A stretch of DNA of 64,000 nucleotides from Chrysogorgia sp. JL179-B06 (Eukaryota > Cnidaria > Anthozoa > Scleralcyonacea > Chrysogorgiidae): NCBI GenBank assembly GCA_035772405.1, contig JAYKKM010000472.1:561001-625000 (forward strand). Direction: 5' to 3'. Positions within the stretch are counted from its first letter, which is position 1, and every line of letters begins with the position of its first letter. The translations under genes were made by a program, and so were the position numbers. Positions 45,762-62,876 of this stretch are shown one piece after another. A model generated the notes under the pieces. That model worked only from the letters and a program-made list of their open reading frames with translations. It was not told where the DNA came from and did no database searches.

Positions 45762-45960
45762 CCAAGATGCTCACCACGTGATCATCGCGTTGAGTCTCTG
45801 TAGTTAGCTTAGGAACCTCTGAGTAAGAGTCGTCTACGGTCATAGAGAGTCCTACGAACCCTCCTAGCTCTATCTCTTTGAACTTCACTCCGACTCTGAG
45901 TTGACGATCGCTCTTCTTCTTACGGTTAACAGTCTCGTTACTTGAGGTACATTGTCCCAT
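45751..45960 (-). CDS. Small protein with N-myristoylation signal (69 aa)
   Basis: The frame starts MGQCTSSNETVNRKKKSDRQ. Gly2 with Ser6 fits the MGxxxS/T rule for N-myristoylation, Cys4 is a possible palmitoylation site, and the following Lys/Arg cluster would favour a membrane surface. The rest (VGVKFKEIELGGFVGLSMTV onward, in part) looks like a small beta-rich piece, and the C-terminus overlaps the inner edge of the TIR. The start is preceded by TTTATAAAATG and is divergent from the ATPase, the two ATGs being only 12 bases apart. It has no known homologue that I can name. A membrane-anchored virion or matrix-like protein is inference. Confidence 0.6.
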   Translation of the reverse strand: MGQCTSSNETVNRKKKSDRQLRVGVKFKEIELGGFVGLSMTVDDSYSEVPKLTTETQRDDHVVSILENT

Positions 45961-45975
45961 TTTATAAATAAAATG
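45955..45975. promoter_or_regulatory. Shared divergent start region, TTTATAAATAAA
   Basis: The 12 bases between the two opposing ATGs read TTTATAAATAAA and supply the A/TAAA start-proximal motif to both genes. The motif recurs at the other gene starts of this element. Confidence 0.65.
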
Positions 45976-46563
45976 AAACCACCATTCAACATGATCATAG
46001 TCGGTCCTACCTGTTGTGGAAAAACGTACTACCTCTTGAGGACGCTAGAGAGAGAGTACAAGGAGATTTTTGATCGTATAGTCCTAATTTGCCCTACAGT
46101 CCTTTGGAATACGACTTATCTCGAGTGGAAACATTACCATGACCAAGGCTTTATAGTTCTTCCTGTTAGTCAAGACAGTGTGGATCAGTCGCTAAAAGAC
46201 GTGGTGAGTGCCTACCAAGGGACGAACACCTTAATAATTCTTGATGACTGTGCTAGTGGTCAAGACGTTAAGAGTAGAACGAGCGAGCTTGTGAAGTTAG
46301 GATTCTCAGCTAGACATTATAAGTTATCAACGATCGTCCTTACACAACAACTAACATCAATAGCTAAACCATACAGAGAGAACCTCTCCAGGATAGTCAC
46401 CTTTCACAACGTCAACAAAGCTGATGCCAAGATACTCGCGGAGAGTTATTTGAACGAGGTTTCCAAAGAGAGGATCACGGAGATCATGCAAGAGCTGAAG
46501 AGCAAAGAGCATGCTTGTCTAGAGATAGACTTACGATACCCTTGGGGATACAGAGTCGTATGA
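45973..46563 (+). CDS. Genome-packaging ATPase (A32/FtsK-HerA type)
   Basis: The protein starts MKPPFNMIIVGPTCCGKTYY, giving a Walker A (GPTCCGKT, residues 11-18) near the N-terminus as in Polinton and other double-jelly-roll virus packaging ATPases. Walker B is NTLIILDDC at about residues 93-101. A sensor-like STIVLTQQLTSI follows about 35 residues later. At 196 residues it is of the usual compact size. I chose ATG 45973 rather than the upstream ATG 45952 because the AATAAA start motif precedes it and because 45952 lies inside the opposing gene. It would drive DNA into capsids using ATP. It is followed, after 14 bases, by the next plus-strand gene. Confidence 0.9.
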   Translation: MKPPFNMIIVGPTCCGKTYYLLRTLEREYKEIFDRIVLICPTVLWNTTYLEWKHYHDQGFIVLPVSQDSVDQSLKDVVSAYQGTNTLIILDDCASGQDVKSRTSELVKLGFSARHYKLSTIVLTQQLTSIAKPYRENLSRIVTFHNVNKADAKILAESYLNEVSKERITEIMQELKSKEHACLEIDLRYPWGYRVV

Positions 46564-46577
46564 CATCATACTAATAA

Positions 46578-47006
46578 ATGGAGTACGAGGTTGAAGATAA
46601 GTCTGTCGAGATCGAGCGTAAACGTGCGGAGCTACTCGTCCTAGCGAGCGACGGAGAGATTGACAAGAGCGAAGCGTACATCAAGAAAGCGAACGAGAAA
46701 ACCGTCGAGAAGTTGTACTCTATGTACGAGGCCAAAAGATTAGAAGAGACTACGGAGTTCATGTATGAGCAATGTATTTCTAAATTCAGTGAGCTCCTCG
46801 GAGGGTTGGACGCTATAGAAAAGCCAGTAGACATGGAGAGTGAACTCAAGAACAACCCTCTTCTCAAGAGAGACTTGAAGAACATTATGCTCTGGATCGC
46901 TCCTCTGATACCGTTCGTTGGAGTGTTAACTGCTGCTATCACGGTTGGGAAACATGTGATGAGTAAGGAACCGAAGGAACCGAAGGAACCAGAGACTCAA
47001 ATATAG
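46578..47006 (+). CDS. Small helical protein with C-terminal membrane segment (142 aa)
   Basis: The start is preceded by ACTAATAA. Residues 1-100 are charged and helical (ERKRAELLVLASDGEIDKSE, AYIKKANEKTVEKLYSMYE). Then comes a hydrophobic segment IMLWIAPLIPFVGVLTAAIT (about residues 103-122) and a tail with three KEPKEPE-like repeats. It overlaps the end of the opposite-strand gene by 10 bases. Small single-span proteins are common in Polintons, and a virion or membrane role is plausible but unproven. Confidence 0.6.
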   Translation: MEYEVEDKSVEIERKRAELLVLASDGEIDKSEAYIKKANEKTVEKLYSMYEAKRLEETTEFMYEQCISKFSELLGGLDAIEKPVDMESELKNNPLLKRDLKNIMLWIAPLIPFVGVLTAAITVGKHVMSKEPKEPKEPETQI

Positions 47007-47791
47007 TATTTCCCTATAATATCAAGTATCTCCTTCACATCGAGGATCATCATGTCCTCTGTCACCAAGTCGCCTATGACCATTCTCGTCATCTCTTTTT
47101 TCTCGGCTTCTTTTTTCTCTACGATGACTTTGAATCCGTTCACGATAGGTCTAGAGTTTCTCTCTAGTCGCTCCCGTGTTTCTGTTTGAGCTTCTAAAAG
47201 GATACGACTCCTCTCGTTATCCTCTTGTTGTTTGATCCTAGTGACTCTCCAAAAGAAGTCTAGAAATTTCTTGTCACTTACTCCTTTTGGAATGAAAAAC
47301 TCCTCTCTGGTGAAGTGACAACCGTGGTACTTAAGCAAGATGAAAAGCATAAGTTGTGGGTTGAAGAAACTTCTACTGTTATCACGTTTTATAAATAACA
47401 TCTCGTAACGTTCTTTCACTTCCTTCAGCACACTCTTGTCTATCACGTTCTTAGGAACTCCAGTGACTAGATGATGGATTGTGTGAACGTGACAGTATTG
47501 TTTGCGTAACTTCAGAGTTCTAAGAGTATTTCTAATGTCATTCTTTGATGGTTCATCCGTAGCACGGCGAACGTTCTCAACCACTTCGGTGGGTACACGC
47601 GACTCGCCCGTAAATCTCAGTATGACTTCTTCAAACATGCTCATCTTGTTTTCGATCTTCTTGTTGTTCGTGTCATACTTCAAGATGATACGATCCAGTG
47701 TGTTCTCGTATTCGGCGAACACTACTTGACTGTGTTGTGCGTTGTCATTCGTTGAACTCATCTCACGCATCGCGATCTTGAAAGCTTCCAT
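46997..47791 (-). CDS. Possible VLTF3-like transcription factor (264 aa)
   Basis: The frame starts after ACATAAGAA. The central part, about residues 85-195, has the run TLRTLKLRKQYCHVHTIHHL, then GVPKNVIDKSVLKEVKERYE, FIKRDNSRSFFNPQLMLFIL and LKYHGCHFTREEF. This pattern (short basic helix, Tyr-x-His, long amphipathic helix, then an R-x-F-F/NF segment and an aliphatic helix) resembles the VLTF3-like late transcription factor domain of large DNA viruses. I rate that as suggestive only: the zinc-ribbon usually before it is not visible. The C-terminus is a charged coiled coil (ERNSRPIVNGFKVIVEKKEA). A role in reading the TAAA start motif is an attractive guess. Confidence 0.4.
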   Translation of the reverse strand: MEAFKIAMREMSSTNDNAQHSQVVFAEYENTLDRIILKYDTNNKKIENKMSMFEEVILRFTGESRVPTEVVENVRRATDEPSKNDIRNTLRTLKLRKQYCHVHTIHHLVTGVPKNVIDKSVLKEVKERYEMLFIKRDNSRSFFNPQLMLFILLKYHGCHFTREEFFIPKGVSDKKFLDFFWRVTRIKQQEDNERSRILLEAQTETRERLERNSRPIVNGFKVIVEKKEAEKKEMTRMVIGDLVTEDMMILDVKEILDIIGKYYI

Positions 47792-47829
47792 TTCTTATGT
47801 AACACTCTTGTGTTAAATAAGGTTTTGCT

Positions 47830-49056
47830 CTAGTACTGGATGCTGTTAAGATTCCCTGATGCTATGTTCAGTAGTGCGTCTGACAATATGAATATGTGAC
47901 ATATCAAGTCGGTAGTCGTGACACGTTTCGTGACCTCCAGTAGGATTCCACTCTGCGTGTTCATGATCTTCTTTCCTGACCCGTGGACTTTCTGGTCTCG
48001 CGTACTTCGCAAGTCTATTACCAATGCAAAGCTGTCTTTGAAGAACTCTCTATGAGTGACGCTCTGGTTGGCTTGACCGAACAGTCGTTCAGCTTCGGAG
48101 TAGTACCTTGACTTAGGGATCCCTTGGCTATAGACCTCGTTGGGGATACCCTCGATGGTTACTTTGACGTTGTCAATGTTCGGGTAGACAAACTCTTCAG
48201 AGTCTGTGACTGCAGCTTTTGTGAACAGCAACACGACGGCTTTCATACTTTTTCGAGGAAGGTTGATGTTCTCGTTGATCAAGGTTTCACCTTTTCCCCA
48301 CGGACTCCGTTTCATGAGTGTAGCGTGCTCGTACGGTAGTGTCTTACCAACCATGTAGAGACTTGTGATCTCACTTGCGAGGTCGACGTTGTCGATAGTC
48401 TCGTACTCGAGCTCCAAGTTTTCTAGTGAGTACCCTCCAACAGCACTACCAGACTGTGCGATCATGATATCGCTAGCTGCAGGTAGTTTGATGGCGAACT
48501 GGAGGTTGTTTGACATGTTGTACGGTGCATACAGTCCGGAGTCTCCTAGGATCTTGTCGAGAGATATTTTTTGTTTCGTGCCGAAGACACTGTAGACAAG
48601 TGCGTCGGATAGTTTTGAGACGTTTCCACTAGCAGCTCCACTATCATCTTTAGATACGAGCTTCCGTAAGTTCTCTCCAGCAACTCCGTACTCCATCATC
48701 TCCTCGCGTTCGATGGATGTCTTCCACAGGTCTTTGTAGACCGCGATGGTAGACTCACCAACGTTGTCATAGGCTACTTCACCGGCCATTTTGACTGTGA
48801 GTTGACTTTGGAGAAGTTTGGACAGGTTGTTCAGGAACCAGCTCTTCACATTCGCGTTCTTGAAGTCGAACAGAACGTGTAGACTTCCCGGGACCAGACA
48901 TGAGTCTGGCTTGAGTTTCGGGATATCAATGTAGAGTGTCTCGTTAGGGTTGGCTTTGTTAGGGTTCATTGTCACGACGTGGCGTGTGCGAGATCCCTTG
49001 ATAGTTGACATGCTAGACTTCTTCGCATGCGGAGATAGTTCTTTATTGCTACTCAT
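47830..49056 (-). CDS. Major capsid protein (double jelly-roll type)
   Basis: It has 408 residues and starts after ATATAATAA. The N-terminal region reads NPNETLYIDIPKLKPDSCLV and PGSLHVLFDFKNANVKSWFL, then NNLSKLLQSQLTVKMAGE and VAYDNVGESTIAVYKDLW. This is the conserved opening of Polinton/adintovirus hexon proteins, with the typical order PxETLYxDIPKL, LVPGSLxLxFDF and YDNxxxS...YKDLW. The later part includes LASEITSLYMVGKTLPYEH and ends near ICHIFILSDALLNIASG. Trimers would form the capsid facets. Its size is in the range for the short Polinton capsid proteins (400-600). The call is by motif; beta-strand layout was not modelled. Confidence 0.85.
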   Translation of the reverse strand: MSSNKELSPHAKKSSMSTIKGSRTRHVVTMNPNKANPNETLYIDIPKLKPDSCLVPGSLHVLFDFKNANVKSWFLNNLSKLLQSQLTVKMAGEVAYDNVGESTIAVYKDLWKTSIEREEMMEYGVAGENLRKLVSKDDSGAASGNVSKLSDALVYSVFGTKQKISLDKILGDSGLYAPYNMSNNLQFAIKLPAASDIMIAQSGSAVGGYSLENLELEYETIDNVDLASEITSLYMVGKTLPYEHATLMKRSPWGKGETLINENINLPRKSMKAVVLLFTKAAVTDSEEFVYPNIDNVKVTIEGIPNEVYSQGIPKSRYYSEAERLFGQANQSVTHREFFKDSFALVIDLRSTRDQKVHGSGKKIMNTQSGILLEVTKRVTTTDLICHIFILSDALLNIASGNLNSIQY

Positions 49057-49099
49057 TTATTATATCGTGAAAAAGTTTTCGTAACGTTCTCTTAGCGAT

Positions 49100-49627
49100 C
49101 TAAGTAGTTGTGTGACACACATCTTTATTAGCGGAGTGGACCGTGGTTTTCTTGTGTCTTGTCAGACCATCATAACTAACGACTAGACCGCACTCGCACG
49201 TGACTTTGACTCTGAGTTTCTCTCTGTTGGAGGAGTAGTAATTCCTATGACTCTCTGCGATCTTATCGCTGTTGTTGTGACGGTAGGTTTCGCGGTATCT
49301 TTTCTTGTCATACGTGCCATCCTCTTTGAAGTAACCACCGCCTTTGTTTGTGTTTAGAGTTGGTGAAAATCTCGCGATACAAGCGCCTTCGAGTTCAAGT
49401 AGTTCTCTCTTCGAGCAGGTCTCTTCTCGTAACGTTAGACTACGGACGTTCTCCCAACCACCAATCTCGACGACGCTACGATACAGTCTGTAGTGTTGTT
49501 TGATCGATGCTCTTGAGTCCTTCTTGTGCCATGCAAGGCGTTGCTTAAGAGTCTTGAACGTAGATCCAATATAGGTATCAGTGTTTACTGTGTTGTACAG
49601 TACGTATACTTTCCCGCTAGTCGTCAT
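49100..49627 (-). CDS. GIY-YIG endonuclease with C-terminal zinc finger
   Basis: From ATG 49627 the protein begins MTTSGKVYVLYNTVNTDTYI and continues GSTFKTLKQRLAWHK, the GIY-YIG core (here VYVLYN...TYIGST) with Arg in the following helix (QRLAWH). A Glu (LLELEGACIARF) and an Asn (PTLNTNKGG) sit where the family keeps metal-binding Glu and the helical Asn. The C-terminus has CECGLVVSYDGLTRHKKTTV with a final His, a C2H2-like finger. A TATAAAG lies 15 bases upstream; the ATG at 49645 lies before that motif and is less likely. The nuclease could process replication intermediates or act as a homing-type passenger. Confidence 0.85.
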   Translation of the reverse strand: MTTSGKVYVLYNTVNTDTYIGSTFKTLKQRLAWHKKDSRASIKQHYRLYRSVVEIGGWENVRSLTLREETCSKRELLELEGACIARFSPTLNTNKGGGYFKEDGTYDKKRYRETYRHNNSDKIAESHRNYYSSNREKLRVKVTCECGLVVSYDGLTRHKKTTVHSANKDVCHTTT

Positions 49628-49657
49628 CTCTACGTCTTTATACATACCTCAACTTCT

Positions 49658-50785
49658 TTAAGAACGTTTCCATTCCATCAACAGCCAGATCAAGCCGACG
49701 ACAACCACCCAAAGATTCTTGGCCAGCCAAGCTAGTCCACTCACACCTAACTTCAAGATGTTGTAGACTAGGTTAGCCAACCCCACAGCGAACGGACCTA
49801 ACTTGACGAGCATGTCTTTGACAGCCTTCGCGAATGACTTCACTGCTCCTGCTCCCTTGGTGATCGCAGTTCTCGAACCAACGATAACGGTTGTTACCAG
49901 ACCTGCGATGGCAATACCTACTGCGGATAGACTCACTAGATTTTTTTTCAACCACTCTTTCACTTTCTCAAGTCGCGTCACGTCTCTCTCTTGTTCACCA
50001 CGCGTTTCTTCGATGACACGCTGCCGTTCAAGAACGTCAACCACGATGTCTATGTCAACGGACTCTTGCGTGAGTTTCGCAGCCGTCTCAACGTCACTGT
50101 CTAGAATTCTTTCGCGAATATTCTCACCTCTCTCCGAGAACTCGTCGATAGTGAGCTGGATGGCTCCGCGATCACCGACTCTACTCTCTGGTAACATTGT
50201 GTCTGACGGGTTCAACGCACCGTTGACAACACGCTGATCCTCTTCGCCGAGTCTCTCGAACACGTCTTCCGACAGGTTTTGCTGTCGAACGTTAATCATT
50301 GGCAACTCTTTGCTAGTTTTGCTCTCACTTACTGCAGAGTCGACAAGCTTTTCGAATTGTGAGACGGCGTTTGAGTTTCTTTTTGCCATGTTTTTTGCGT
50401 ACGAACCGTCTGTATTGTTTAGAACTATCTTCTCAACAGTAGAGTATCCACCATTTTTGAGCTGCTCCCTAAAAACCACTTTTCCGTCTTTGACAGTGGT
50501 TCTGTTTCTTAATTCTATCACGCTCTCCGAGTGAGGATTAAGTTTTTGTCCGTGAGAATCTTGAACATACTTGTCTAGCTGAACGAACACGTCTTGACTA
50601 ACATCACCTCCAAAACTAGTCTCGGCGAGGAGGTGACGGTTGATATACGTGATCCTCTCAGTGACGTCGTCGGTCAGAAATCTCTGATTGAGATCGTCAA
50701 GAGTTGTGTCTAACTCTTCGTTATCCAGATTATCGTACTCCGGAAACCTTTCTTCCATCTCAAAATTGTCGTCAGCTTCTGCCAT
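49658..50785 (-). CDS. Putative virion membrane protein (375 aa)
   Basis: The ATG follows ACAAATAAA. Residues 1-265 are acidic and helical without a known fold (DNEELDTTLDDLNQRFLTDD, DIVVDVLERQRVIEETRGE). The last 100 residues are hydrophobic: NLVSLSAVGIAIAGLVTTVI, then an amphipathic stretch with Lys (AVKSFAKAVKDMLVK), then VGLANLVYNILKLGVSGLAW and LWVVVVGLIWLLMEW. Polintons commonly encode a protein with such a C-terminal membrane block. A role in membrane penetration at entry is a family-level inference. It lies directly upstream of the GIY-YIG gene on the same strand. Confidence 0.65.
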   Translation of the reverse strand: MAEADDNFEMEERFPEYDNLDNEELDTTLDDLNQRFLTDDVTERITYINRHLLAETSFGGDVSQDVFVQLDKYVQDSHGQKLNPHSESVIELRNRTTVKDGKVVFREQLKNGGYSTVEKIVLNNTDGSYAKNMAKRNSNAVSQFEKLVDSAVSESKTSKELPMINVRQQNLSEDVFERLGEEDQRVVNGALNPSDTMLPESRVGDRGAIQLTIDEFSERGENIRERILDSDVETAAKLTQESVDIDIVVDVLERQRVIEETRGEQERDVTRLEKVKEWLKKNLVSLSAVGIAIAGLVTTVIVGSRTAITKGAGAVKSFAKAVKDMLVKLGPFAVGLANLVYNILKLGVSGLAWLAKNLWVVVVGLIWLLMEWKRS

Positions 50786-51133
50786 TTTATTTGTTGAAAA
50801 AAAAGGGGCCCCTTCTCTTATTGCGACCGCTGACCATTACGTACGTGCGTCCGTCGAGGTGAAAACAAGAAAAGCCGCGAAAGTCTAAAAAAACCCGTAG
50901 GAAACACTACGAATTTTAGCTTTCTTTTAGTGATAACTTGAGTTATCACTACGTAGATAGTGTTTAGGAGTGTACACTTGTTAGACTATGTTAGGAAACT
51001 AAAACATTAACAACACACTCGTAAAATTTTTGAAAAATATATTTTTGTACAAAGACTTTTTAAAAAAAAAGTTAAGCCGCCTCTAAAGGTGAGACGGCCG
51101 AAACGTTCTGTCCAATCCGAGTCCGTGATTCGC
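50786..51133. other. Intergenic region with a perfect 10-bp palindrome
   Basis: It holds AGTGATAACT-TG-AGTTATCACT at 50929-50950 and weaker outer symmetry (AACACTAC / GTAGATAGTGTT). With the hairpin at 51463-51606 it makes 50.8-51.7 kb the only sizeable gene-poor region in the element. Confidence 0.55.
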
Positions 51134-51385
51134 TCACTGGTGGTCCGTCTCCGCTCCCGACGGCCTTCTCCACTCCGCCGGCTCCGGATTCTCTCGAAGT
51201 GCATCTTCGAACATTCCGAGTCGGCGCTCATGCTCGGCCAACTCTGCGTTGTATGTCGCTATTTCAATGTCTACTATTGCCCTTCGCGCCAGCGCCCTCT
51301 CTCTTTTTCTCAGAGTGGCAGTCCTCCCTCTCTCCTCTTTATAATGCAACTCTTTAAGTCGGTCCCTCGACACTGAGGGATCCAT
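51134..51385 (-). CDS. Possible small coiled-coil protein (83 aa)
   Basis: MDPSVSRDRLKELHYKEERG, then RTATLRKRERALARRAIVDI and YNAELAEHERRLGMFEDAL. It is highly charged and helical. It lacks the TAAA start motif that the other 20 genes of the element have (the upstream bases are CAGTCAAA), so it may not be a gene. Confidence 0.35.
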   Translation of the reverse strand: MDPSVSRDRLKELHYKEERGRTATLRKRERALARRAIVDIEIATYNAELAEHERRLGMFEDALRENPEPAEWRRPSGAETDHQ

Positions 51386-51462
51386 TTTGACTGACCGGAG
51401 AGGGCTATCAGGTTACGATGGCAACCACCTAGCGTAGAGGGGGTCTCTCGTAATGAGGTCGC

Positions 51463-51606
51463 GTGATCGCGTGACCTACTTGTCGGCACATTCCACGTTG
51501 TCAAAGGGAGAAAAAACTTTTCAAATTTTTTTTTCAAATGAAAAAAAATAATTTTTTTTTCGAAATTTCTTTGACGTCTGGGAATGTGCCGACACGCGAT
51601 CGTGAC
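51463..51606. repeat. Long imperfect inverted repeat upstream of the integrase gene end
   Basis: The left arm (GATCGCGTG...TGTCGGCACATTCC...GTCAAAG) pairs with the right arm (CTTTGAC...GGAATGTGCCGACA...CGCGATC). The arms are about 40 bp around an A/T-only loop of about 60 bases. It could be an origin, a terminator between converging units, or a remnant of a small insertion. Confidence 0.7.
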
Positions 51607-51701
51607 TTTTCAAATTTTTTTCCCCAAAAATTTTCAAAAAACTTCTTATACGTTTTCACCGTTATTTTTTATTGCGCATCTTTTTGTAATATATACTTTT
51701 T

Positions 51702-52799
51702 TCACAAATTTTCCATGTCACTCTCAGGGATCCACGAGTTATGCTTGTCGTCGTAACCAGCCCACTTGACCAGAACCATCTTTTTCTTGTTCACCGTCTT
51801 TCTTTTCAAAACTTTCTCGACGCGATACGTAGCGTCGACTGTTTTCTCAACGGCGGACATCTCCTCTTCGTAGAACGTTCCGATAACGTCTTCCCCGCTC
51901 TCATCACTAAGAACGTACACGTTCGGGTCTCCACCAACTACTTTACTCACGGAAAAGATTTCTTCGGTAAAATTTGCTTCGTACCCTTTCGTGAATATAC
52001 TTTTATACTTACTAATTCTCACTTTTTGTCCAAGCTTATACTTTGGTCGTGGAAACTCACCCAAGTCTTGACCGAAAAGTGTCATCCATACCTGACTCTC
52101 ATTAGTCTTATCGACGTCTGCTGGTTTCATGAGAACACTACTATGTTTCGTGTTGTTATAACTCTCAACGAGATCGTTCAGAACGTCTATCCACTTATAC
52201 GTTCCCTTGCTGTAGAAATACTTCCACATGCTTGTCTTCAGGGTTCTGTTGAACCTCTCGACTACGGCCGCTTTCTTGTCAGACTTTGTAGAGAAGTAAT
52301 TCACGTCGTGTTCATCTAACAAGTTTTTAACACCTACGTTGTAAAACTCTAGTCCATCGTCAAACTGTGCGAACTTTGGATATATCTCAAATCTTTCGTG
52401 AAACTGACGTAGTAACTCGTCTACGGCTTTCGTCATGTTTTTCGTGTCTTTCCGATACACAGGGATAGCGAAAGCGTAGCGACTAAGAATCTCGACACAC
52501 GTGAGTATCCAGTAGTAGCCATTGTTCTTGTTTTTGTATTTTCCCATATCGACGAGGTCGAGTTGAATTTGTTCACCAAGGTACGAGACCCATGTCTTTC
52601 GAAACTTATGTCGTCTTACTACGGGTTTATATCGTGTGTAAGTATCTTGAGCTCTCGACCACTCTTTCACGGACTTTCTACTTACGTTCAGACCTTCCGC
52701 TAGTGCTTTTTGATATAGTCTCTCCATGCTTTGGTAACCAGTCACAGGGTTATAGTACAAATCTCTTAGACCTTGCTCTGATATGATGTCATCATCCAT
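51702..52799 (-). CDS. Retroviral-type integrase with chromodomain
   Basis: It has 365 residues and starts after AAAATAAA. An N-terminal helical region precedes the rve core. Catalytic residues by position are Asp81 (GEQIQLDLVDM), Asp147 (AQFDDGLEFYN) and Glu181 (AAVVERFNRTLK), the D,D,E arrangement with 33 residues between the last two. The last 50 residues form a chromodomain: TYRVEKVLKRKTVNKKKMVL, VKWAGYDDKHNSWIPESDM, including the Trp/Tyr cage residues. It would bind the AG...CT ends and insert the element with a 6-bp stagger. The chromodomain may steer insertion to modified histones, presumably H3K9-type marks. The stop lies next to the inverted-repeat region. Confidence 0.95.
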   Translation of the reverse strand: MDDDIISEQGLRDLYYNPVTGYQSMERLYQKALAEGLNVSRKSVKEWSRAQDTYTRYKPVVRRHKFRKTWVSYLGEQIQLDLVDMGKYKNKNNGYYWILTCVEILSRYAFAIPVYRKDTKNMTKAVDELLRQFHERFEIYPKFAQFDDGLEFYNVGVKNLLDEHDVNYFSTKSDKKAAVVERFNRTLKTSMWKYFYSKGTYKWIDVLNDLVESYNNTKHSSVLMKPADVDKTNESQVWMTLFGQDLGEFPRPKYKLGQKVRISKYKSIFTKGYEANFTEEIFSVSKVVGGDPNVYVLSDESGEDVIGTFYEEEMSAVEKTVDATYRVEKVLKRKTVNKKKMVLVKWAGYDDKHNSWIPESDMENL

Positions 52800-56041: not shown

Positions 56042-56107
56042 TCCCTTTATTACAGAGAAAAAAAGATTTGTAATGGTCAACCATTACGAAAAAATATATA
56101 TGTAAAC

Positions 56108-56332
56108 TCACTTGAACGGGTCGTCAGGAATAAGTTTCTTCTGTTGTGCATATTTTACGGCGACTGTTCCAACACTCACCGCAGCTACAAGTTTCAGTGT
56201 TCCAACGAGACTACTTGGTGCTCCGAGAGACTCTCCGAACACTTTCTTCGATGCCATGCTAATACCGACTCCGGCGGCGACGAAAAGCAAGACGTCGTAC
56301 ACTTCGTTCATGATAACTTTTCGATCAGTCAT
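56108..56332 (-). CDS. Small two-span membrane protein (74 aa)
   Basis: The ATG follows CTATAATAAAGA. It contains YDVLLFVAAGVGISMASKKV and LGAPSSLVGTLKLVAAVSVG, each hydrophobic and Gly/Ala-rich, and ends with KLIPDDPFK. Holin-like or scaffold roles cannot be separated on sequence. Confidence 0.55.
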   Translation of the reverse strand: MTDRKVIMNEVYDVLLFVAAGVGISMASKKVFGESLGAPSSLVGTLKLVAAVSVGTVAVKYAQQKKLIPDDPFK

Positions 56333-56346
56333 TCTTTATTATAGCA

Positions 56347-56652
56347 TTAGTCAAAAGACTCTATGGTGGACTTGTCCTCAGGTTTGTCCTGAGACTTGTC
56401 TTGAGGTTTGTCCTGAGGTTTGTCCTGAGACTTGTCTTGTTTGTATGCGAAATATAGTGCACCAACACCCGTGATAGCACCAATAGTTCCGATAACGTAT
56501 CCGAAACTAATACTACTACTCTGCTCGCAGTCATCTTGACGCTCGCGAGCCTTCTTCTCTTTCGCAGCCTTACTAATCTCGGCGAGCTTCTTACCCGCTG
56601 CCACGCGTCTGGGATCTTTTATTTTCGTCGGGTTGTCGTTCGTTATTTCCAT
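56347..56652 (-). CDS. Single-span protein with basic helix and DKPQDK tail (101 aa)
   Basis: It starts after TATAGATAAAG. The N-terminal half has DPRRVAAGKKLAEISKAAKE followed by KKARERQ, a basic helix that I recall as a recurring motif (xxPxRVxAGKKLAExxKxxKE) in Polinton-type elements. One membrane helix follows (ISFGYVIGTIGAITGVGALY). The tail is a degenerate repeat of DKPQ/DKSQ. It could hold DNA or nucleoprotein at a membrane. Confidence 0.6.
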   Translation of the reverse strand: MEITNDNPTKIKDPRRVAAGKKLAEISKAAKEKKARERQDDCEQSSSISFGYVIGTIGAITGVGALYFAYKQDKSQDKPQDKPQDKSQDKPEDKSTIESFD

Positions 56653-56654
56653 CT

Positions 56655-56915
56655 TTATCTATAGGTTATCTCAAAGCTACTCAAAGCTACTCAAAGCTAC
56701 TCACAGGTCATCTCAAAGCTACTCACAGGTCATCTCAAAGCTACTCACAGGTCATCTCAAAGCTACTCAAAGCTACTCACAGGTCATCTCAAAGCTACTC
56801 GCAGGTCATCTCAAAGCTACTCACAGGTCATCTCAAAGCTACTCACAGGTCATCTCAAAGCTACTCACAGGTCATCTCAAAGCTACTCACAGGTCATCTC
56901 AAAGCTACTCGCAGG
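56655..56915. repeat. Minisatellite, unit about 22 bp (CTACTCACAGGTCATCTCAAAG)
   Basis: About eleven copies of TCATCTCAAAGCTACTCACAGG occur, with shorter ACTCAAAGCT units at two places and a few A/G changes. It lies between two minus-strand genes. The 159-codon ORF through it is a repeat artefact. The spacing is too short and regular for CRISPR. Confidence 0.9.
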
Positions 56916-56918
56916 TAA

Positions 56919-57161
56919 CTACTTCTTTCTACCAGTCATCTCGCCACCATGTTGACTTTTGTAATACTTGTTCTCAGTCTCCAGGATACTTATTTTCCTT
57001 TCACGAAACTCTGCATGACCCTCTAGTCTCACAATCTTTTTCTCAAGATCGAGAACTTTACTTGCATAATTCTCTAGTTTCACAATCTTTTTCTCGAGAT
57101 CGAGAACTTTAATTGCGTAATCCTCTAGATATGATTGTCGCGAGCACACTCCTGCAAACAT
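56919..57161 (-). CDS. Small coiled-coil protein with internal repeats (80 aa)
   Basis: The ATG follows TTATAATAA. Two tandem copies of about 21 residues (YAIKVLDLEKKIVKLENYA, SKVLDLEKKIVRLEGHA) make a leucine-zipper-like heptad pattern. The tail reads RKISILETENKYYKSQHGG. The DNA is repeated as well (about 63-bp unit). It may oligomerise, for example as a fibre shaft or scaffold; no homologue known to me. Confidence 0.55.
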   Translation of the reverse strand: MFAGVCSRQSYLEDYAIKVLDLEKKIVKLENYASKVLDLEKKIVRLEGHAEFRERKISILETENKYYKSQHGGEMTGRKK

Positions 57162-57227
57162 TTATTATAACAGTAAAACAAGTTCAAGTTTAACTAGAAC
57201 GTAGTTTAGAATATACTGTAATAAAGA

Positions 57228-57557
57228 ATGGTACTGATCACAAAGCAAGAGTTTCTTGACGTAGTAGAACTCGTGTGGGATGTAAGTGTGACAGGTGTTG
57301 AAAGTACAATAAGTACTCTCGAAGACTACATCGAAGAAGACGCTGAAGATGTAGACGAAGAAGAATTCTACGACTCTCATATCGGAAATGGAATAACACA
57401 ACATACACTACATGACTTAATGGAGGAATGGGATAATGGACTTTGTTCTATTAAAACTATTGTCGAGTTTCTCGACAACTATGTAGAGAGCGACGACTTT
57501 ATACGAATGCAAGCTGTTGAGTGGACAATGGAGTATAACGAGAGTATGATAAAATAA
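57228..57557 (+). CDS. Small acidic protein (109 aa)
   Basis: It starts after CTGTAATAAAGA. MVLITKQEFLDVVELVWDVS, then EDYIEEDAEDVDEEEFYD and IKTIVEFLDNYVESDDFI. It is very acidic and mostly helical, with no membrane segment. DNA mimicry or partner binding is possible. The next gene follows 4 bases after its stop. Confidence 0.55.
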   Translation: MVLITKQEFLDVVELVWDVSVTGVESTISTLEDYIEEDAEDVDEEEFYDSHIGNGITQHTLHDLMEEWDNGLCSIKTIVEFLDNYVESDDFIRMQAVEWTMEYNESMIK

Positions 57558-57561
57558 AGAC

Positions 57562-57963
57562 ATGACGACTATGATGGCAGGAGGATTGTTCAACGCACTC
57601 GCGTTCGCAGGTGCTGGTTTCCTATTCAAAAGTTTAGATGGAAACAAGTATGGTAAGGAGATGAAACGTCATAATCTTGCCATAGAAAAACTCACACAAG
57701 AGAAAGAAAAGTGGAACGAAGAAGAGGTCAAACACAGAGACAAACTTGCAAGACTACAACTTGCTTTGTCGGACGCTAACCGTAACATAGATAATACGAA
57801 CGCAGCTCTTGACTTACTCTCCGCAACATTTCGCAAAGAACCACAACTTCGCGACTACTACACCCCGTCGTCGGAGATGCAAGATTACCTAACGATGACA
57901 GAGGGAGCGATGTACCTGAGCACAGGATGGGTTGGTTACAAGGCGTTGACATACTTCATATAA
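57562..57963 (+). CDS. Conserved Polinton-associated protein with coiled coil (133 aa)
   Basis: The ATG follows AAAATAAAGAC. The N-terminus MMAGGLFNALAFAGAGFLFK is hydrophobic and Gly/Ala-rich, followed by RHNLAIEKLTQEKEKWNEEE and VKHRDKLARLQLALSDAN, a coiled coil. The layout (short hydrophobic GGLxNALAFxGxxFLF plus a RHxLAxExLxxxxxxW helix) matches a family that I remember repeatedly from cnidarian Polinton-like elements. Function unknown; a membrane-linked structural role is plausible. Confidence 0.65.
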   Translation: MTTMMAGGLFNALAFAGAGFLFKSLDGNKYGKEMKRHNLAIEKLTQEKEKWNEEEVKHRDKLARLQLALSDANRNIDNTNAALDLLSATFRKEPQLRDYYTPSSEMQDYLTMTEGAMYLSTGWVGYKALTYFI

Positions 57964-58163
57964 AACCGATAGTCACTCACTCGTAGATCGAAACTTGGAG
58001 AAAAAAAAAAATAAAAATACAAAGACGTGAGTAGTGCTTGCAGATAGTTCTCCTAGATAAAAAGAACGCATACTCTTCTAAGTTATAACCGCGTTCCCAA
58101 ACAGTAGTGTTCGGAAACTAGCAAACCGAGCGGATATAAAGAGAACACTATAGTACAATAAAG
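57964..58163. other. 200-bp gap, no gene
   Basis: AT-rich with an A run at 58001-58013 and a weak symmetry (AACAGTAGTGTTCGGAAAC). It precedes the plus-strand cluster that leads to the polymerase. Confidence 0.4.
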
Positions 58164-58490
58164 ATGGTCTTCTACACGCTGAAAGAACTAAAAGCACTCG
58201 CTAAAGAACAGAAAGTCAAGATTGGATCAAACACGAAGAAGTCTAACTACCTCAAGCTACTTGGATTGGAGTCCGAAGAGCCTACGAGGTTCGGACATTG
58301 CCAGAGCAAGAAGCCAGCTCAAAAGATCGTGACGACGAACAACACCACCGGAGAAGAGACGACCTTCAGTAGCATCTTCGAGACCGCTAGCCACTTCGGC
58401 TTGTTTGCAGGCTCAATCACCTGGAGGATTAAGAAACATCGTGGGCTGTGTAGAGACAGGATAGTCTATACGTTTAGGAAGGTCGAGTGA
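58164..58490 (+). CDS. Small DNA-binding protein with SAP-like and NUMOD-like segments (108 aa)
   Basis: It starts after TACAATAAAG. Residues 1-35 (YTLKELKALAKEQKVKIGSN, KSNYLKLLG) fit a SAP-type helix-extended loop-helix. Residues 55-95 (VTTNNTTGEETTFSSIFETA, SHFGLFAGSITWRIKKHRG) fit the nuclease-associated modular DNA-binding repeat (NUMOD1-like helix-turn-helix) found in GIY-YIG and HNH homing enzymes. It could be a separate DNA-binding subunit for the GIY-YIG nuclease of this element, or a regulator. Confidence 0.55.
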   Translation: MVFYTLKELKALAKEQKVKIGSNTKKSNYLKLLGLESEEPTRFGHCQSKKPAQKIVTTNNTTGEETTFSSIFETASHFGLFAGSITWRIKKHRGLCRDRIVYTFRKVE

Positions 58491-58578
58491 AGTCGCCCGC
58501 GACCTAACCTGAGACGGGTTAGGCCATTGCTAATCAAACTTAAGTTTAAAGGGATGGCATGTCGTCTAATAAAGAGGT

Positions 58579-60732
58579 ATGAGGAAGACGACATTGAACG
58601 ACATCTCCGACTGGATGAAGCAGATAGACGAGTCCGCCAAGATAACTCCGACTTCGAATAAGACTACTCCAGCCCCACCCAAGAAAACTCCAGCCCCACC
58701 CAAGAAGACTCCTGCCCCAAAGATCCCGACCCCAGACAGGAAGACACCTAAGACAACCATAGGTAGCGTCTCAGACTGGATGAACCAAATAAAGAGCAAG
58801 GTGGTCGAGTGGTATGACTACTTCTTCAAGCAAGACCTAGAAATATCAGTCAGCGAGTCAACCCTACGAGGGTTCTCGGAGACATATACAATAGTAACAC
58901 CGCCAAAGGTAGACCCTAAGACCTTCCTAGCAGACGCCAGAGCACTAGTACTAGACCTTTGGAAGGGTGAGGTCACAACGAGAAAGGGGGTGAAGACAAA
59001 ACTCATCCTAGAGTGTACTATGGTCAGATCGACCGACGTCGGGCCTGTCGAGGCGGTCGCAATGTTCCACTCCCTCGTAGGCATCGTGTTACCTGGGACT
59101 GACATGGATGAGCTATACGACGCGTCCGTCGGAAAGATCCTAGAGACCGTCGCAACCTACTTGAAGAGAGGTAGCGGGTGGCGAATCCTGAGCGTCGCTA
59201 AGTTAGACATACACATCGACACCTACAAGCCGATAAGCGCGTCGTCGTACATCCCCACGCCAAAAGCTCTAGCTGCCAAGAAAGCCATCGTCAACGTCCA
59301 AAACAAAACAGACAACGAGTGTTTCAAGTGGTCCGTCACGGCCGCTAGATCGTTGAGACAGAAGAACTTGGAAAAGACGAGCAAGAGCCTTCTGACAGAG
59401 TCTAAGAAATTCGACTGGAGCGGGATCTCATTCCCAACACCGCTATCTAACATCAAGAGGTTCACTACGAACAACGACATCAACATCAACGTGTTCGCCT
59501 ATGAGGAGAAGACCGGTGTCTATCCACTTCTCGTCGGAGGCAACTCGAACGACACTGTCAACCTGTTGTTCATCACCGAACAGAGTAAGGACGGGAAGGT
59601 CAACTCGCACTACGCCTGGATCAAGAACATGAGCCGCTTACTGTCTAGCACTAAGAGCAAACATGACGGTGCGATCTTCTTTTGCTATCGCTGTATGAAC
59701 AGCTTCACCTCAAAGGTTATCTTAGGCAAGCATGAAGAGCACTGCTCACGAGTGGACAGTATCAAGACCGAGATGCCTGAAGAGGGGAGCACTACAAAAT
59801 TCAGAAACGTCTACAAGACACAAGACGTTCCATTCGTGGTCTATGCTGACTTCGAGAGTTTCATAGAACCTATCAATGGATGTGTGAACGACCTAAAATG
59901 CAGCTCAACAACACAGTACCAGCACCACACCCCGTCTGGGTTCTGCTTCCACTTGAAGTGCTTTGACGATAACCTGCATTGGGAAGAGCCAAACCTATAC
60001 ACAGGCGAGAACGCGGGCGAGAAGTTTGTCTTGGAGGTAGAGAGAGTTGTCAAGAACATCTATGAGAAATTTAAAGTCGCGAAAGAGATAGTCTACAGAC
60101 CAGAAGACAAACAAGTCCACGAGAGTAGTGAGACGTGTTGGTTGTGTGGCAAGGACTGGAGTCAAAAGACTAAGAAAGACAACCCAGATAAGAAAGTCAG
60201 AGACCATTGTCATCTCACTGGTAAGTACCGCGGAGCCGCGCATAGCAGTTGTAACTTAAAATACAAGCTCCCGAAGTTCGTACCTGTCATATTCCATAAC
60301 CTCTCCGGGTACGACGCACACTTGTTCGTAAAGAACCTTAGCGTCACGGAGGGTGACGTCAAGTGTATCCCAAACAACGAAGAGAAATACATCTCGTTCA
60401 GCAAGGACATCGTGGTGGATCACGAGATAGACAACGATGGTAAGGAGAGACTCGTCAAAAGAGAGATCAGGTTCCTCGACAGTCTTAAGTTCATGCCATC
60501 TAGCCTGGAAAAGTTGGTCAACAACCTAGACGAAGAAGACCTCGTCTCAACCAAGAGAGTGTTTGGCAGTGACTCCAAACTAGTCTCTCAAAAGGGTGTG
60601 TATCCTTACGAACACATGACAGGACCAGCGTCTCTTGACGAGACTCAACTACCACCTATAGAGAAGTTCCACTCTATTCTTAATAACACTGACCTCTCCG
60701 AAGATGACTACCGACACGCCATGACGAGATGA
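58579..60732 (+). CDS. Protein-primed DNA polymerase B, N-terminal part (terminal region, HNH-like insert, exonuclease)
   Basis: It starts ATG after CTAATAAAGAGGT. A Pro/Lys repeat (APPKKTPAPPKK) is near residue 35. The exonuclease I motif FVVYADFESF has Asp424 and Glu426. A zinc/HNH-like insert (CWLCGKDW from residue 520; RDHCHLTGKYRGAAHSSCN near 540-560) precedes exonuclease II, FHNLSGYDAHL (Asn574, Tyr578, Asp579). The first 350 residues hold a possible terminal-protein or primase-like region. The frame ends in a TGA created by an 8-bp tandem duplication (ATGACGAG at 60721-60728 and 60729-60736); the polymerase continues in another frame. It is therefore one gene broken by a frameshift, not two natural genes. 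The reading is otherwise clean. Confidence 0.9.
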   Translation: MRKTTLNDISDWMKQIDESAKITPTSNKTTPAPPKKTPAPPKKTPAPKIPTPDRKTPKTTIGSVSDWMNQIKSKVVEWYDYFFKQDLEISVSESTLRGFSETYTIVTPPKVDPKTFLADARALVLDLWKGEVTTRKGVKTKLILECTMVRSTDVGPVEAVAMFHSLVGIVLPGTDMDELYDASVGKILETVATYLKRGSGWRILSVAKLDIHIDTYKPISASSYIPTPKALAAKKAIVNVQNKTDNECFKWSVTAARSLRQKNLEKTSKSLLTESKKFDWSGISFPTPLSNIKRFTTNNDININVFAYEEKTGVYPLLVGGNSNDTVNLLFITEQSKDGKVNSHYAWIKNMSRLLSSTKSKHDGAIFFCYRCMNSFTSKVILGKHEEHCSRVDSIKTEMPEEGSTTKFRNVYKTQDVPFVVYADFESFIEPINGCVNDLKCSSTTQYQHHTPSGFCFHLKCFDDNLHWEEPNLYTGENAGEKFVLEVERVVKNIYEKFKVAKEIVYRPEDKQVHESSETCWLCGKDWSQKTKKDNPDKKVRDHCHLTGKYRGAAHSSCNLKYKLPKFVPVIFHNLSGYDAHLFVKNLSVTEGDVKCIPNNEEKYISFSKDIVVDHEIDNDGKERLVKREIRFLDSLKFMPSSLEKLVNNLDEEDLVSTKRVFGSDSKLVSQKGVYPYEHMTGPASLDETQLPPIEKFHSILNNTDLSEDDYRHAMTR

Positions 60733-60736
60733 CGAG
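60721..60736. repeat. 8-bp tandem duplication that breaks the polymerase frame
   Basis: ATGACGAG occurs twice head to tail. Eight extra bases shift the frame and create the stop at 60730-60732. The sequence on either side is polymerase-like without a gap, so a single copy would be in frame. Confidence 0.85.
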
Positions 60737-62279
60737 CATGCGTGAGTACCACGACTTGTATCTGAAGACAGACGTGATGCTGTTGGAGGACGTCTTCGAG
60801 AACTTTAGAAAGACGTGCAAGACCCACTACGAGTTAGACCCGGCGTTCTACTACACGGCACCCGGGTTGGCTTTCGACGCGCTGCTCAAGACTACCGGAG
60901 CGGAACTCGAACTACTAACAGACGTAGACATGCTGTTGATGGTCGAGAAAGGTATTCGTGGCGGAGTCAGCACCATCATGAAGAGACACGCCGTGGCTAA
61001 CAACAAGCATATGGACTACATCAACGGCGCAGAGCGAACCGGAGACTCACTGCACGACAAGTCTAAGCCTAGCACGTACCTACCTTACCTTGACGCAAAC
61101 AATCTCTACGGTTGGGCAATGAGCATGCCACTGCCAACGCACAGGTTTAAGTGGATGACTGAAGACCAGCTTGCCAACCGGCAAGACATGCCATGCATTC
61201 TGGAGGTGGACTTAGAGTACCCAGAGGAACTCCACGACCAACACAACGACTACCCACTAGCACCGGAGAGAGTCATGGTCAACGGGATAGAGAAACTCAT
61301 CCCGAACTTGAGTAACAAGACTAAGTACGTACTCCACAAGAAGAACCTCGAACAATACCTCAGACTAGGATTAAGACTCACGAAGATCCACAGAGGGATA
61401 ACATTCCTCGAGAGTGCATGGATGAAACCTTACATCGCTCTCAACACGCGACTTAGAACCATAGCCAAGAACGAGTTTGAGAAAGACTTCTTCAAGCTAA
61501 TGAACAATAGCGTGTTCGGGAAGACCATGGAGAACATTCGTAACAGGGTTGACATCCAGCTAGTCACCACAGAGGAGAAGATGCGAAAGCTAGTAGCCAA
61601 GCCTAACTATCACCACCGGACGATCTTTGACGAGAGTCTGACGGCTGTACACATGAGGAGAACTAGAGTCAAGTTTGACAAACCAGTCTATCTAGGGATG
61701 TCTATCCTTGACCTAAGCAAGACGCTCATGTACAAGTTCCACTACGACTATATTAAACCTAAGTACGGAGATAGGGCAACGTTGCTATTCACGGACACGG
61801 ACAGTCTCATGTACGAGATTTCTACAGACGACTTCTACAAGGACATCAGCGAAGACGTCGAGAAAGAGTTTGACACTTCAGCTTACGGGAAGGACCACCC
61901 TAGCTGTATTCCAATAGGCCAAAACAAGAAGGTGCTTGGGATGATGAAGGACGAGAACCACGGCGAGCAAGTCCTAGAATTCGTCGGACTGAGAGCCAAG
62001 CTTTACGCTCTCAGGACGTTACGTGGTGACCAAAAGAAGTGCAAGGGGGTCAAGAAGGGAGTGGTCGACAGAGATATCAAGTTCTCAGACTACAAGACAT
62101 GTCTGCTCAGAAAGACACCCGTACTCAAGACCATGAACGTGTTCAGATCTCACGGACACGAGATCTACACGGAGGCTGTCAACAAGAAAGCCCTAAGTAG
62201 CGACGACGACAAGCGACTCATCCTACCTGACGGGGTCTACACTCTAGCCCTAGGTCACTACAAACTAGGAAGCTTCTAG
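60729..62279 (+). CDS. Protein-primed DNA polymerase B, C-terminal part (exonuclease III and polymerase)
   Basis: It continues the polymerase after the duplication. Exonuclease III is YHDLYLKTDVMLLEDVF. Polymerase motif A is YLPYLDANNLYGWAMSMPL (Asp122), motif B is LMNNSVFGKTMENIRNR (around residues 257-271), and motif C is LLFTDTDSLMYEI (Asp356, Asp358). All catalytic residues are present, so apart from the frame break the enzyme looks intact. The apparent ATG at 60729 is a by-product of the duplication. The order and sizes match Polinton pPolB proteins of about 1,200-1,250 residues. It would replicate the linear genome by protein priming at the TIRs. Confidence 0.95.
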   Translation: MTSMREYHDLYLKTDVMLLEDVFENFRKTCKTHYELDPAFYYTAPGLAFDALLKTTGAELELLTDVDMLLMVEKGIRGGVSTIMKRHAVANNKHMDYINGAERTGDSLHDKSKPSTYLPYLDANNLYGWAMSMPLPTHRFKWMTEDQLANRQDMPCILEVDLEYPEELHDQHNDYPLAPERVMVNGIEKLIPNLSNKTKYVLHKKNLEQYLRLGLRLTKIHRGITFLESAWMKPYIALNTRLRTIAKNEFEKDFFKLMNNSVFGKTMENIRNRVDIQLVTTEEKMRKLVAKPNYHHRTIFDESLTAVHMRRTRVKFDKPVYLGMSILDLSKTLMYKFHYDYIKPKYGDRATLLFTDTDSLMYEISTDDFYKDISEDVEKEFDTSAYGKDHPSCIPIGQNKKVLGMMKDENHGEQVLEFVGLRAKLYALRTLRGDQKKCKGVKKGVVDRDIKFSDYKTCLLRKTPVLKTMNVFRSHGHEIYTEAVNKKALSSDDDKRLILPDGVYTLALGHYKLGSF

Positions 62280-62318
62280 GACGATATAGAGAGAGCTCAT
62301 ACATGTATAAAGAAAGAG

Positions 62319-62876
62319 ATGACCAGACTTACGATAGACTTCGTATGGACACACACACTGCAAGACGAGATGACAAAACCCAAGATTAACAAGGTGACCA
62401 CGATCAGAGCAAGACTAAGCAGGCGCTTGAGTGAGTACATCGGTAACCCTATCGTGAGAGTCACGTATACACGCGAGTCTGTGGAGCGCGCGGTGGCGTT
62501 CATAACGTCGATACCAAACCGTAGCTATAGTTTGTCACACGCGCTAGGACCTCTCTTCACGATGCTAATGGAGGTCGACGTGCAACTGACAAACACCACG
62601 TGGTACACTGCCGAACAAGTAGGGCGTGCAATCCGGTCGTTCAAGGCACTCGACAAACATCTTGGTAATCACCACGTGACACAACTCTCAAGACAAGCGA
62701 CGACCAACTACAGGAACTACTTGATCACCGTGGCGTGTCGGTTAAGACAGGCAATCGACAGGGTGTTGCGCAACGTGGAGCAAGGAGACTTCGGAATGGA
62801 GGACGTCTACGAAAATCTGAGAATAGACTATTGGAAAACGTTGGACGCCATCTTGGAACACGCAGCGAACACGTGA
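62319..62876 (+). CDS. Unknown helical protein at the right end (185 aa)
   Basis: It starts after CATGTATAAAGAAAGAG. MTRLTIDFVWTHTLQDEMTK, then RARLSRRLSEYIGNPIVRV and GRAIRSFKALDKHLGNHHV. It is rich in Arg and Thr, all-helical by appearance, and has no membrane segment. Its stop lies at the inner border of the right TIR. It follows the polymerase on the same strand by about 40 bases and may be a replication accessory or DNA-binding protein. Confidence 0.55.
   Translation: MTRLTIDFVWTHTLQDEMTKPKINKVTTIRARLSRRLSEYIGNPIVRVTYTRESVERAVAFITSIPNRSYSLSHALGPLFTMLMEVDVQLTNTTWYTAEQVGRAIRSFKALDKHLGNHHVTQLSRQATTNYRNYLITVACRLRQAIDRVLRNVEQGDFGMEDVYENLRIDYWKTLDAILEHAANT

Follow-up and report, generated by a model that had tools for sequence, protein, structure and literature searches.

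Start-codon-proximal AATAAA motif, VLTF3-like gene and gene-end hairpins in an integrated Polinton of Chrysogorgia suggest transcription by large-DNA-virus rules

In a 64,000-nucleotide stretch of the genome of the anthozoan Chrysogorgia sp. JL179-B06 (assembly GCA_035772405.1, contig JAYKKM010000472.1, positions 561,001 to 625,000 of the forward strand; hereafter the window, along which all positions are counted), an integrated Polinton carries a short motif, ATAA[AG] and most often AATAAA, at the start codons of its genes, encodes a protein related to the late transcription factor VLTF3, and belongs to a group of elements in which several genes are followed by palindromic hairpins. Taken together, this suggests that the element is transcribed by the rules of large DNA viruses rather than from ordinary host-type promoters. 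Since start motif, palindromes and VLTF3-like gene occur in the same element, a transcription programme of the Nucleocytoviricota type would be the simplest account. Judging from sequence, it is fairly probable that AATAAA is the core of a late-type initiator promoter, the use of which would be assisted by the VLTF3-like protein, with very short leaders and with several transcripts ending at hairpins. To our knowledge, Polinton transcription is largely uncharted.

An initial annotation of the window had listed 20 gene starts, on both strands, as having a TAAA-type motif within about 15 nt, and all 20 proved to be ATG codons with ATAA[AG] at no more than that distance, the A of the ATG being counted. 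The motif reads AATAAA at 15 of them, ATAAA without the preceding A at four (45960(-), 49627(-), 56652(-) and 62319) and ATAAG at 47791(-); a core of the poxvirus type is present as TAAATG or as AATAAA near the ATG. Among 20 open reading frames (ORFs) of at least 80 aa, 17 have ATAA[AG] no further than 12 nt from the start, compared with 7 of the 464 remaining ATGs on both strands of the element (Fisher P 4e-23); for AATAAA the counts are 14 of 20 and 3 of 464. This list of 20 ORFs is rule-based, save that the antisense ORF 55710(+) was swapped by hand for 56041(-), and the 464 background ATGs include the named starts 45960, 49627 and 56332. With the unedited list and ATAAA required to lie fully upstream of the ATG within 12 nt, the counts are 11/20 and 6/464, the lower figure arising because forms sharing the A of the ATG are then left uncounted. 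Of the 21 AATAAA found on both strands of the interior, 14 have their first base 5-11 nt ahead of one of the 20 starts, and another precedes the 74-aa ORF at 56332(-).

The motif is missing at three starts: 49645(-), where it sits before the next in-frame ATG at 49627; 51385(-), where the ORF of 83 aa is itself doubtful; and 60729, from which the second polymerase-region ORF is read. The ORF opened at 45960(-) has 69 aa only, and this start may simply arise from the symmetry of the one at 45973. The end of the motif varies from one base inside the ATG to about 9 nt before it. The first genes of divergent pairs (53460/53482 and 57161/57228) also possess it, so it is not a relic of an upstream gene. 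Outside the element, the motif occurs at 0/16 ORFs of at least 130 aa and 2/52 of at least 80 aa in the window, and the flanking starts 42381, 42936, 44077 and 63302, given at the outset as devoid of it, do lack it.

Relatives were searched for in the source assembly (781 Mb, 522 contigs). With the 219-aa ORF (52801-53460), 150 genome matches were scored out of 4012 first-look candidates, with 66-100% identity and 148 of the 150 free of stops. In the stretches of 60 relatives plus the window, orthologues were identified by BLAST and the ATG nearest to the aligned start was used; 41 rows were dropped, 39 because their start could not be placed, one for lack of an ATG and one as too short. Absence of the motif from sister elements would have told against the original proposal. 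Among the 184 distinct start regions of orthologues, window included, 165 retain it within 15 nt, and once two genes with poorly placed starts are removed the count is 159 of 166. The 19 misses concern the GIY-YIG gene (nine, five of which have ATAAA ending 11-15 nt before the ATG), the 142-aa ORF (three, an internal ATG having been taken, with most rows of this gene dropped as unplaced), the 445-aa ORF (three), and the ATPase, integrase, 261-aa and 101-aa ORFs (one each). As background, 410 of 6081 ATGs in the loci of the relatives have the motif, gene starts included. Several element proteins diverge by 30-50% between copies. In a profile of 138 distinct motif-anchored sequences, where ATAA is invariant through the anchoring and information can come only from the A in front of it and from the flanks, this leading A reaches 1.3 bits and few positions upstream carry information. 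The motif had been put forward as a Polinton-specific promoter: as a putative promoter specific to this VLTF3-bearing Polinton group it stands, and it is to this group, the one covered by the comparison, that the wording has to be narrowed.

The likeness to late promoters of large DNA viruses, already pointed out in the initial annotation, is strengthened by a factor that the latter did not name, that is a 264-aa protein matching Pox_VLTF3 (PF04947) with E 6.4e-9 and 36.2 bits for a curated cut-off of 25. Searching the genome with the same family gave 24 stretches at E<=0.001 from 41 candidates, some with stops and two in one place, and 0/14 control genomes matched. Among the relatives, L072, the layout of which resembles that of the window, matches with E 1.6e-12, and L070, with an N-terminal CxxC motif, with E 4.1e-18; the starts of the VLTF3-like genes themselves have the motif in 9 of 11 cases. 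The slot beside the 142-aa ORF is often occupied in relatives by a different-looking protein with a CxxC motif. A profile of seven such proteins picks up the VLTF3-like protein of the window in the same region (7.4 bits; E 1.5e-4, one sequence being searched), and these CxxC proteins are considered with moderate confidence as diverged VLTF3-like proteins. Compared with 5.8 billion proteins, the VLTF3-like protein of the window gave 337 candidates and none at E 0.001, and its AlphaFold model from the single sequence has a pLDDT of 38. Elsewhere in the genome, very typical VLTF3 fragments are found in L069 (G000:C196:1829686-1830054 and 1831522-1831746; E 6e-28) and L071 (E 2.2e-15), the surroundings of which contain no long viral ORFs and are probably decayed; these fragments possibly stem from old insertions of large DNA viruses.

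At the other end of the genes, the mean longest perfect stem found after an ORF in distinct regions of the relatives was compared with shuffles. It amounts to 9.3 against 5.1 in shuffled sequence after the 408-aa ORF (16 regions), 10.2 against 5.0 after the 127-aa ORF (14 regions), 7.9 against 4.9 after the 261-aa ORF (14 regions), 6.9 against 4.8 after the GIY-YIG gene (13 regions) and 6.8 against 4.7 after the 80-aa ORF (13 regions), which are the genes where palindromes are enriched after stop codons as the hairpin rule of giant viruses would have it. The hairpins of the 127- and 261-aa ORFs are not separate evidence, because these convergent genes share one hairpin. After the 408-aa ORF, a stem of at least 8 is present in 13 of 19 copies, with seven different arms; the figures are 8 of 15 copies and six different arms for the GIY-YIG gene, and 15 of 17 copies and six arms for the 127-aa ORF. 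In the first two cases, the arms vary not only in length but also in their bases, the latter on both sides, so that the pairing is kept while the sequence changes. Considering strong palindromes (stem of at least 9, loop of 2-9), 77 of 88 distinct ones are intergenic (60 of the 77 being listed), in 34.5 kb or 16% of the sequence, and 11 lie in 184.6 kb of coding sequence (P 8e-50). Eleven palindromes stand between divergent genes, nine of which consist of two opposed start motifs and are not to be read as gene ends.

A built-in control is provided by a second, AT-rich virus-like element, seen in the window at 42052-45319 and 63255-64000 as well as in L073 (1-7000). It seems to have been split by insertion of the Polinton, and from composition and ORF style both flanks would belong to one element. 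Its ORFs are densely packed and include those of a SET-domain protein (PF00856, E 8.8e-6) and of a short basic protein, and its GC content is 23-35% in L073 and up to 40% in the left flank. The motif is present at 0/16 of its starts, some of which are tandem duplicates, and at 39 of all its 409 ATGs. TATA[AT]A occurs 25-95 nt upstream of 12 of the 16 starts, for a background of 23-37% of windows, and 35-48 nt before seven of the 16 ATGs, two of the seven being tandem duplicates; in the Polinton, TATA[AT]A is found at that 25-95 nt distance for only 2 of 18 genes, close to the background of 4% of windows. With the motif at none of the 16 starts and TATA boxes instead, two virus-like elements of one genome thus seem to use different start signals. 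Palindromes with a stem of 9 are absent from L073 and from window 41501-45325, and amount to 0.1 per kb in window 1-38000.

On these grounds, we infer that transcripts start at the motif, on which the VLTF3-like protein would act, and that mRNA ends are formed by the hairpins. Transcription would begin at or inside the A-run of AATAAA, leaving a near-zero 5' leader, with the element's own VLTF3-like factor helping to read the motif; several transcripts would end at palindromic hairpins shortly 3' of the stop codon, and between convergent genes one symmetric hairpin could serve both. The polymerase would be supplied by host Pol II or by a co-infecting large DNA virus, since none was recognised among the ORFs scanned.

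Several observations weigh against this proposal. No RNA polymerase, capping enzyme, RNase III or poly(A) polymerase was found among the 19 element ORFs scanned against Pfam, and with no machinery of its own in these ORFs, the borrowed machinery must accept both start and end signals. The 184 starts are not 184 independent events, because the copies are related. A T-rich block like that of poxviruses is weak: with genes weighted equally, the A+T content is 0.72 at -16 to -9 against 0.61 at -40 to -26 and there is no excess of T over A upstream. Regarding the factor, three of ten CxxC-slot ORFs match Pox_VLTF3 weakly (E 8e-4, 0.018 and 0.026, all below the cut-off) and the other seven have no match at E 1, five of these seven aligning with a matching one; hhalign gives a probability of 7% only for the CxxC profile against the VLTF3-like protein of the window. 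As to the gene ends, the best hairpin test on the window copy alone gives p 0.04, which is not significant because 18 tests were made. The stem excess is small after the 375-aa ORF (5.6 against 4.5, 14 regions) and the ATPase (5.5 against 4.6, 15 regions) and absent after the 142-, 101-, 219- and 445-aa ORFs in the relatives relative to shuffles, and the arms after the 127-aa ORF are mostly length variants of one sequence. The 133-aa ORF and the integrase, with one region each, show no hairpin.

Among other explanations, the one that survives best is that these Polintons are animal counterparts of virophages. Their start motif and 3' hairpins would be those of a large cytoplasmic DNA virus, the RNA polymerase of which would transcribe them during co-infection and would be biased in their favour by the VLTF3-like factor. 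Start motif, hairpins and VLTF3 are indeed all of the Nucleocytoviricota type, the genome also contains the more typical VLTF3 fragments of L069 and L071, and a helper-supplied enzyme has been suggested for the type 4 mavirus-like elements, whose TCTA late promoter is also that of the giant virus CroV (PMC8547959). Such a helper is itself putative here, and the explanation is rather unlikely. It also counts against it that we know of no animal virophage, nor of any virophage with a VLTF3 of its own. A more elaborate version, in which animal virophages would have copied TAAA-type starts and hairpin ends, would carry a VLTF3-like factor and be expressed by a helper polymerase, and in which the many copies in this genome would act as, or descend from, an antiviral reserve, is more speculative still and seems doubtful.

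A-rich stretches before the ATG are common in eukaryotes, and the motif could accordingly be seen as a favourable start context for host ribosomes. What is conserved at 165 of 184 starts is nonetheless ATAA[AG], with an internal T and at a spacing of -1 to 9 nt, and this variable spacing speaks against a ribosome context, because such a context should be fixed relative to the ATG; with 0/16 starts in the surrounding element and 0/16 among the other window ORFs of at least 130 aa, the explanation is improbable. Even less can be said for AATAAA being the poly(A) signal of the upstream gene packed against the next ATG, despite its being the canonical hexamer. For tandem pairs, AATAAA or ATTAAA does lie within 100 nt past the stop of the 408-aa ORF in 14/16 and of the 445-aa ORF in 11/14, so that a double role is conceivable there; for the ATPase, also in a tandem pair, the figure is just 1/15. 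At divergent first genes, the motif is present with no upstream gene on that strand, and at convergent ends, where most copies have hairpins, the hexamer is found in 0/14 (127-aa ORF) and 2/14 (261-aa ORF), which leaves this role as the main one very improbable. A TATA box lies some 25-30 nt before the transcript start; although the motif is AT-rich and TATA-like in several genes, its position 0-10 nt from the ATG would make transcripts start inside the ORF, and the host-type arrangement is seen instead in the surrounding element (12/16 with TATA[AT]A), so a host TATA box is hardly credible. Chance can practically be dismissed: the element has about 55% A+T, but the motif is conserved in relatives and found at 7/464 other ATGs and at 0/16 starts of the more AT-rich surrounding element.

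The element itself is a complete-looking integrated Polinton, bounded by inverted repeats of 245 nt each that are 99% complementary (45326-45570 and 63004-63248; terminal sequences AGTAGTAGGAAACTG and CAGTTTCCTACTACT) and flanked by a target site duplication of the 6-bp length that is standard for Polintons; an integrase and an A32-like ATPase are further Polinton features found in it. The integrase combines its chromodomain with an rve match of E 1.7e-6 and 28.7 bits, under the curated cut-off of 32.6. A GIY-YIG protein is also encoded and the other ORFs have no clear Pfam match; a scan with NCBIfam gave nothing useful. For the conserved 408-aa ORF, which may encode the capsid protein, a double jelly-roll capsid was looked for and neither a Pfam match nor a convincing PDB sequence match was obtained; its AlphaFold model from the single sequence has a pLDDT of 28. 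In the polymerase region, an Endonuclease VII domain is present (E 3.3e-5) and a FTDTDS motif was seen by eye in the second ORF, neither ORF giving a DNA polymerase match in Pfam at E 0.1. No adenovirus-type protease, which is not present in every Polinton, was matched among the 19 ORFs scanned in Pfam, and PF00770 (adenain) gave 0 matches from 106 candidates in the genome with controls equally silent, so that its absence is not shown. In IMG/VR, no relatives were confirmed for the 408-aa ORF, the VLTF3-like protein, the ATPase, the second polymerase ORF or alignment A2.

Gene order in window 45973-49056 differs from that of relatives L029-L048. Where labelled in relatives, the 408-aa ORF, the ATPase and the 142-aa ORF all point in the same direction; the window and L072 have the 408-aa ORF and the VLTF3-like gene opposed to the ATPase and the 142-aa ORF. 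Between two element genes, a tandem array with a unit containing CTCAAAGCTACTC was seen by eye at 56653-56918. Around the Polinton, ORFs of THAP, SAM-like and retroelement types are encountered, as would suit an animal genome. Directly to its left, a 374-aa ORF (44077-45201(+)) begins with MARVKQTHR, which is reminiscent of MARTKQTAR, the tail of histone H3. Given the SET-domain gene close by, this could be a histone mimic, or chance. In the same flank, two small ORFs of 80 and 87 aa form a pair that is tandemly duplicated according to the translations, at 42434-42936 and 43272-43774. The positions of all features are collected in Table 1.

Table 1. Features of the Polinton in the window. For start motifs, ratios give the distinct orthologous starts carrying ATAA[AG] within 15 nt.
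Feature	Position	Strand	Detail
Whole integrated Polinton	45326..63248	.	terminal inverted repeats, target duplication
Target site duplication AATGTC, left copy	45320..45325		6 bp
Target site duplication AATGTC, right copy	63249..63254		6 bp
A32-like packaging ATPase	45973..46563	+	PF04665, E 1.4e-15
VLTF3-like late transcription factor	46997..47791	-	264 aa; Pox_VLTF3 PF04947
Conserved 408-aa ORF, candidate capsid protein	47830..49056	-	81-92% identity to 10 other copies
Integrase with chromodomain	51702..52799	-	Chromo E 1.2e-10, over cut-off
Polymerase region	58579..62279	+	two overlapping ORFs, 58579-60732 and 60729-62279
ATAAA before 69-aa ORF 45960	45961..45965	-	
AATAAA, A32-like ATPase start 45973	45967..45972	+	15/16
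AATAAATG, 142-aa ORF start 46578	46573..46578	+	1/4; only 4 orthologous starts placeable
ATAAG variant, VLTF3-like gene start 47791	47794..47798	-	same-layout copy L072: AATAAAAAAATG
AATAAATG, 408-aa ORF start 49056	49056..49061	-	18/18; 14 as ATAAATG
ATAAA before GIY-YIG ORF ATG 49627	49637..49641	-	5/14
AATAAAATG, 375-aa ORF start 50785	50786..50791	-	12/12
AATAAAATG, integrase start 52799	52800..52805	-	15/16
AATAAAATG, 219-aa ORF start 53460	53461..53466	-	26/26; divergent with 53482
AATAAAATG, 445-aa ORF start 53482	53476..53481	+	12/15
AATAAATG, 261-aa ORF start 54825	54820..54825	+	13/14
AATAAAGGGAATG, 127-aa ORF start 56041	56046..56051	-	14/14
AATAAAGAATG, 74-aa ORF start 56332	56335..56340	-	
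ATAAAGATG, 101-aa ORF start 56652	56654..56658	-	13/14
AATAAATG, 80-aa ORF start 57161	57161..57166	-	8/8; divergent with 57228
AATAAAGAATG, 109-aa ORF start 57228	57220..57225	+	2/2 including window
AATAAAGACATG, 133-aa ORF start 57562	57553..57558	+	7/7 including window
AATAAAGATG, 108-aa ORF start 58164	58157..58162	+	read in the window copy
AATAAAGAGGTATG, polymerase-region ORF start 58579	58568..58573	+	read in the window copy
ATAAA before 185-aa ORF 62319	62307..62311	+	read in the window copy
Hairpin TAACAC-4-GTGTTA, 3' of 408-aa ORF	47800..47815		orthologous stems up to 13 bp
Hairpin GTAACCA-4-TGGTTAC	55628..55645		between convergent genes ending 55610 and 55658
Hairpin GTAATGGT-2-ACCATTAC	56070..56087		downstream of 74-aa ORF 56332(-)
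Hairpin CCTAACC-7-GGTTAGG, 3' of 108-aa ORF	58503..58523		

The links between Polintons, virophages and giant viruses have so far been argued mainly from gene content, and a Polinton group that combines a conserved start motif with hairpin ends and a VLTF3-like factor brings transcription into that debate in a form open to testing. Either a cellular polymerase can be directed by a VLTF3-like protein, or virophage-like elements with an unknown helper exist in animals, and the numerous relatives within one genome are well suited to comparative and transcript tests.

In the open-licence literature, as covered by titles and the beginnings of abstracts and with subscription papers mostly outside, no report of a Polinton start motif or of 3' hairpins was found among the entries listed, which is limited evidence. 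The portions consulted of PMC8715426, PMC12220804, PMC12721341, PMC12945077, PMC12638062 and PMC6905037 hold nothing on such signals or on VLTF3 in Polintons, and those of PMC4642659 have no terms for start motif, hairpins or VLTF3. VLTF3 homologues are described as undetectable outside Nucleocytoviricota (PMC11253617). In Amoebidium, a relative of animals, integrated adintovirus-like elements with VLTF3, capsid genes and PolB are nevertheless on record, and because of this precedent a VLTF3 in a Polinton-related element is not claimed here as new; unlike the present Polinton, the Amoebidium elements are about 30 kb long and have a Dam methyltransferase, and the text available on them mentions neither start motif nor hairpins (PMC11244446). 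Meldviruses, e.g. Meld23486, join PolB and integrase of the Polinton type to poxvirus-like virion genes, much as the present element has a Polinton-type integrase beside genes of the large-DNA-virus type; the main text of that report, which defines adintoviruses by a BLASTp-recognisable hexon and an OTU-bearing PolB, contains none of the terms VLTF, late transcription and promoter (PMC11071296). The mavirus-type virophages and their integrated forms (EMALEs) are likewise Polinton-related and have one promoter motif before many genes; in EMALE type 4 this motif is the TCTA of the helper CroV, whereas here it is AATAAA, accompanied by a VLTF3-like gene, and the helper is putative (PMC8547959).

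Regarding gene ends, the transcripts of Mimiviridae are cut and polyadenylated at hairpins (PMC4402537), a rule shared by Marseilleviridae, where it was validated on one transcript (PMC5413956). The palindromes of the Polinton group resemble those of both families in having no conserved sequence, in being strongly intergenic and in their link to stop codons; in contrast, RNase III and a viral poly(A) polymerase were not found in the 19 Polinton ORFs, the Polinton hairpins are putative mRNA ends, and some Polinton genes have no hairpin. Regarding gene starts, poxviruses possess their own RNA polymerase and a T-rich upstream block of about 20 bp, followed by a spacer of 5-7 bp. In the Polinton, none of the ORFs scanned was recognised as a polymerase, that block is weak, and AATAAA often stands at some distance from the ATG as well, unlike in poxviruses. 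The core of the poxvirus late promoter, TAAAT(G/A), extends over the site where transcription begins, and the transcripts have no leader (PMC5294985). The Polinton signal resembles this late promoter, with TAAATG at the start codon, presumably little or no leader, a link to VLTF3 and a compact genome.

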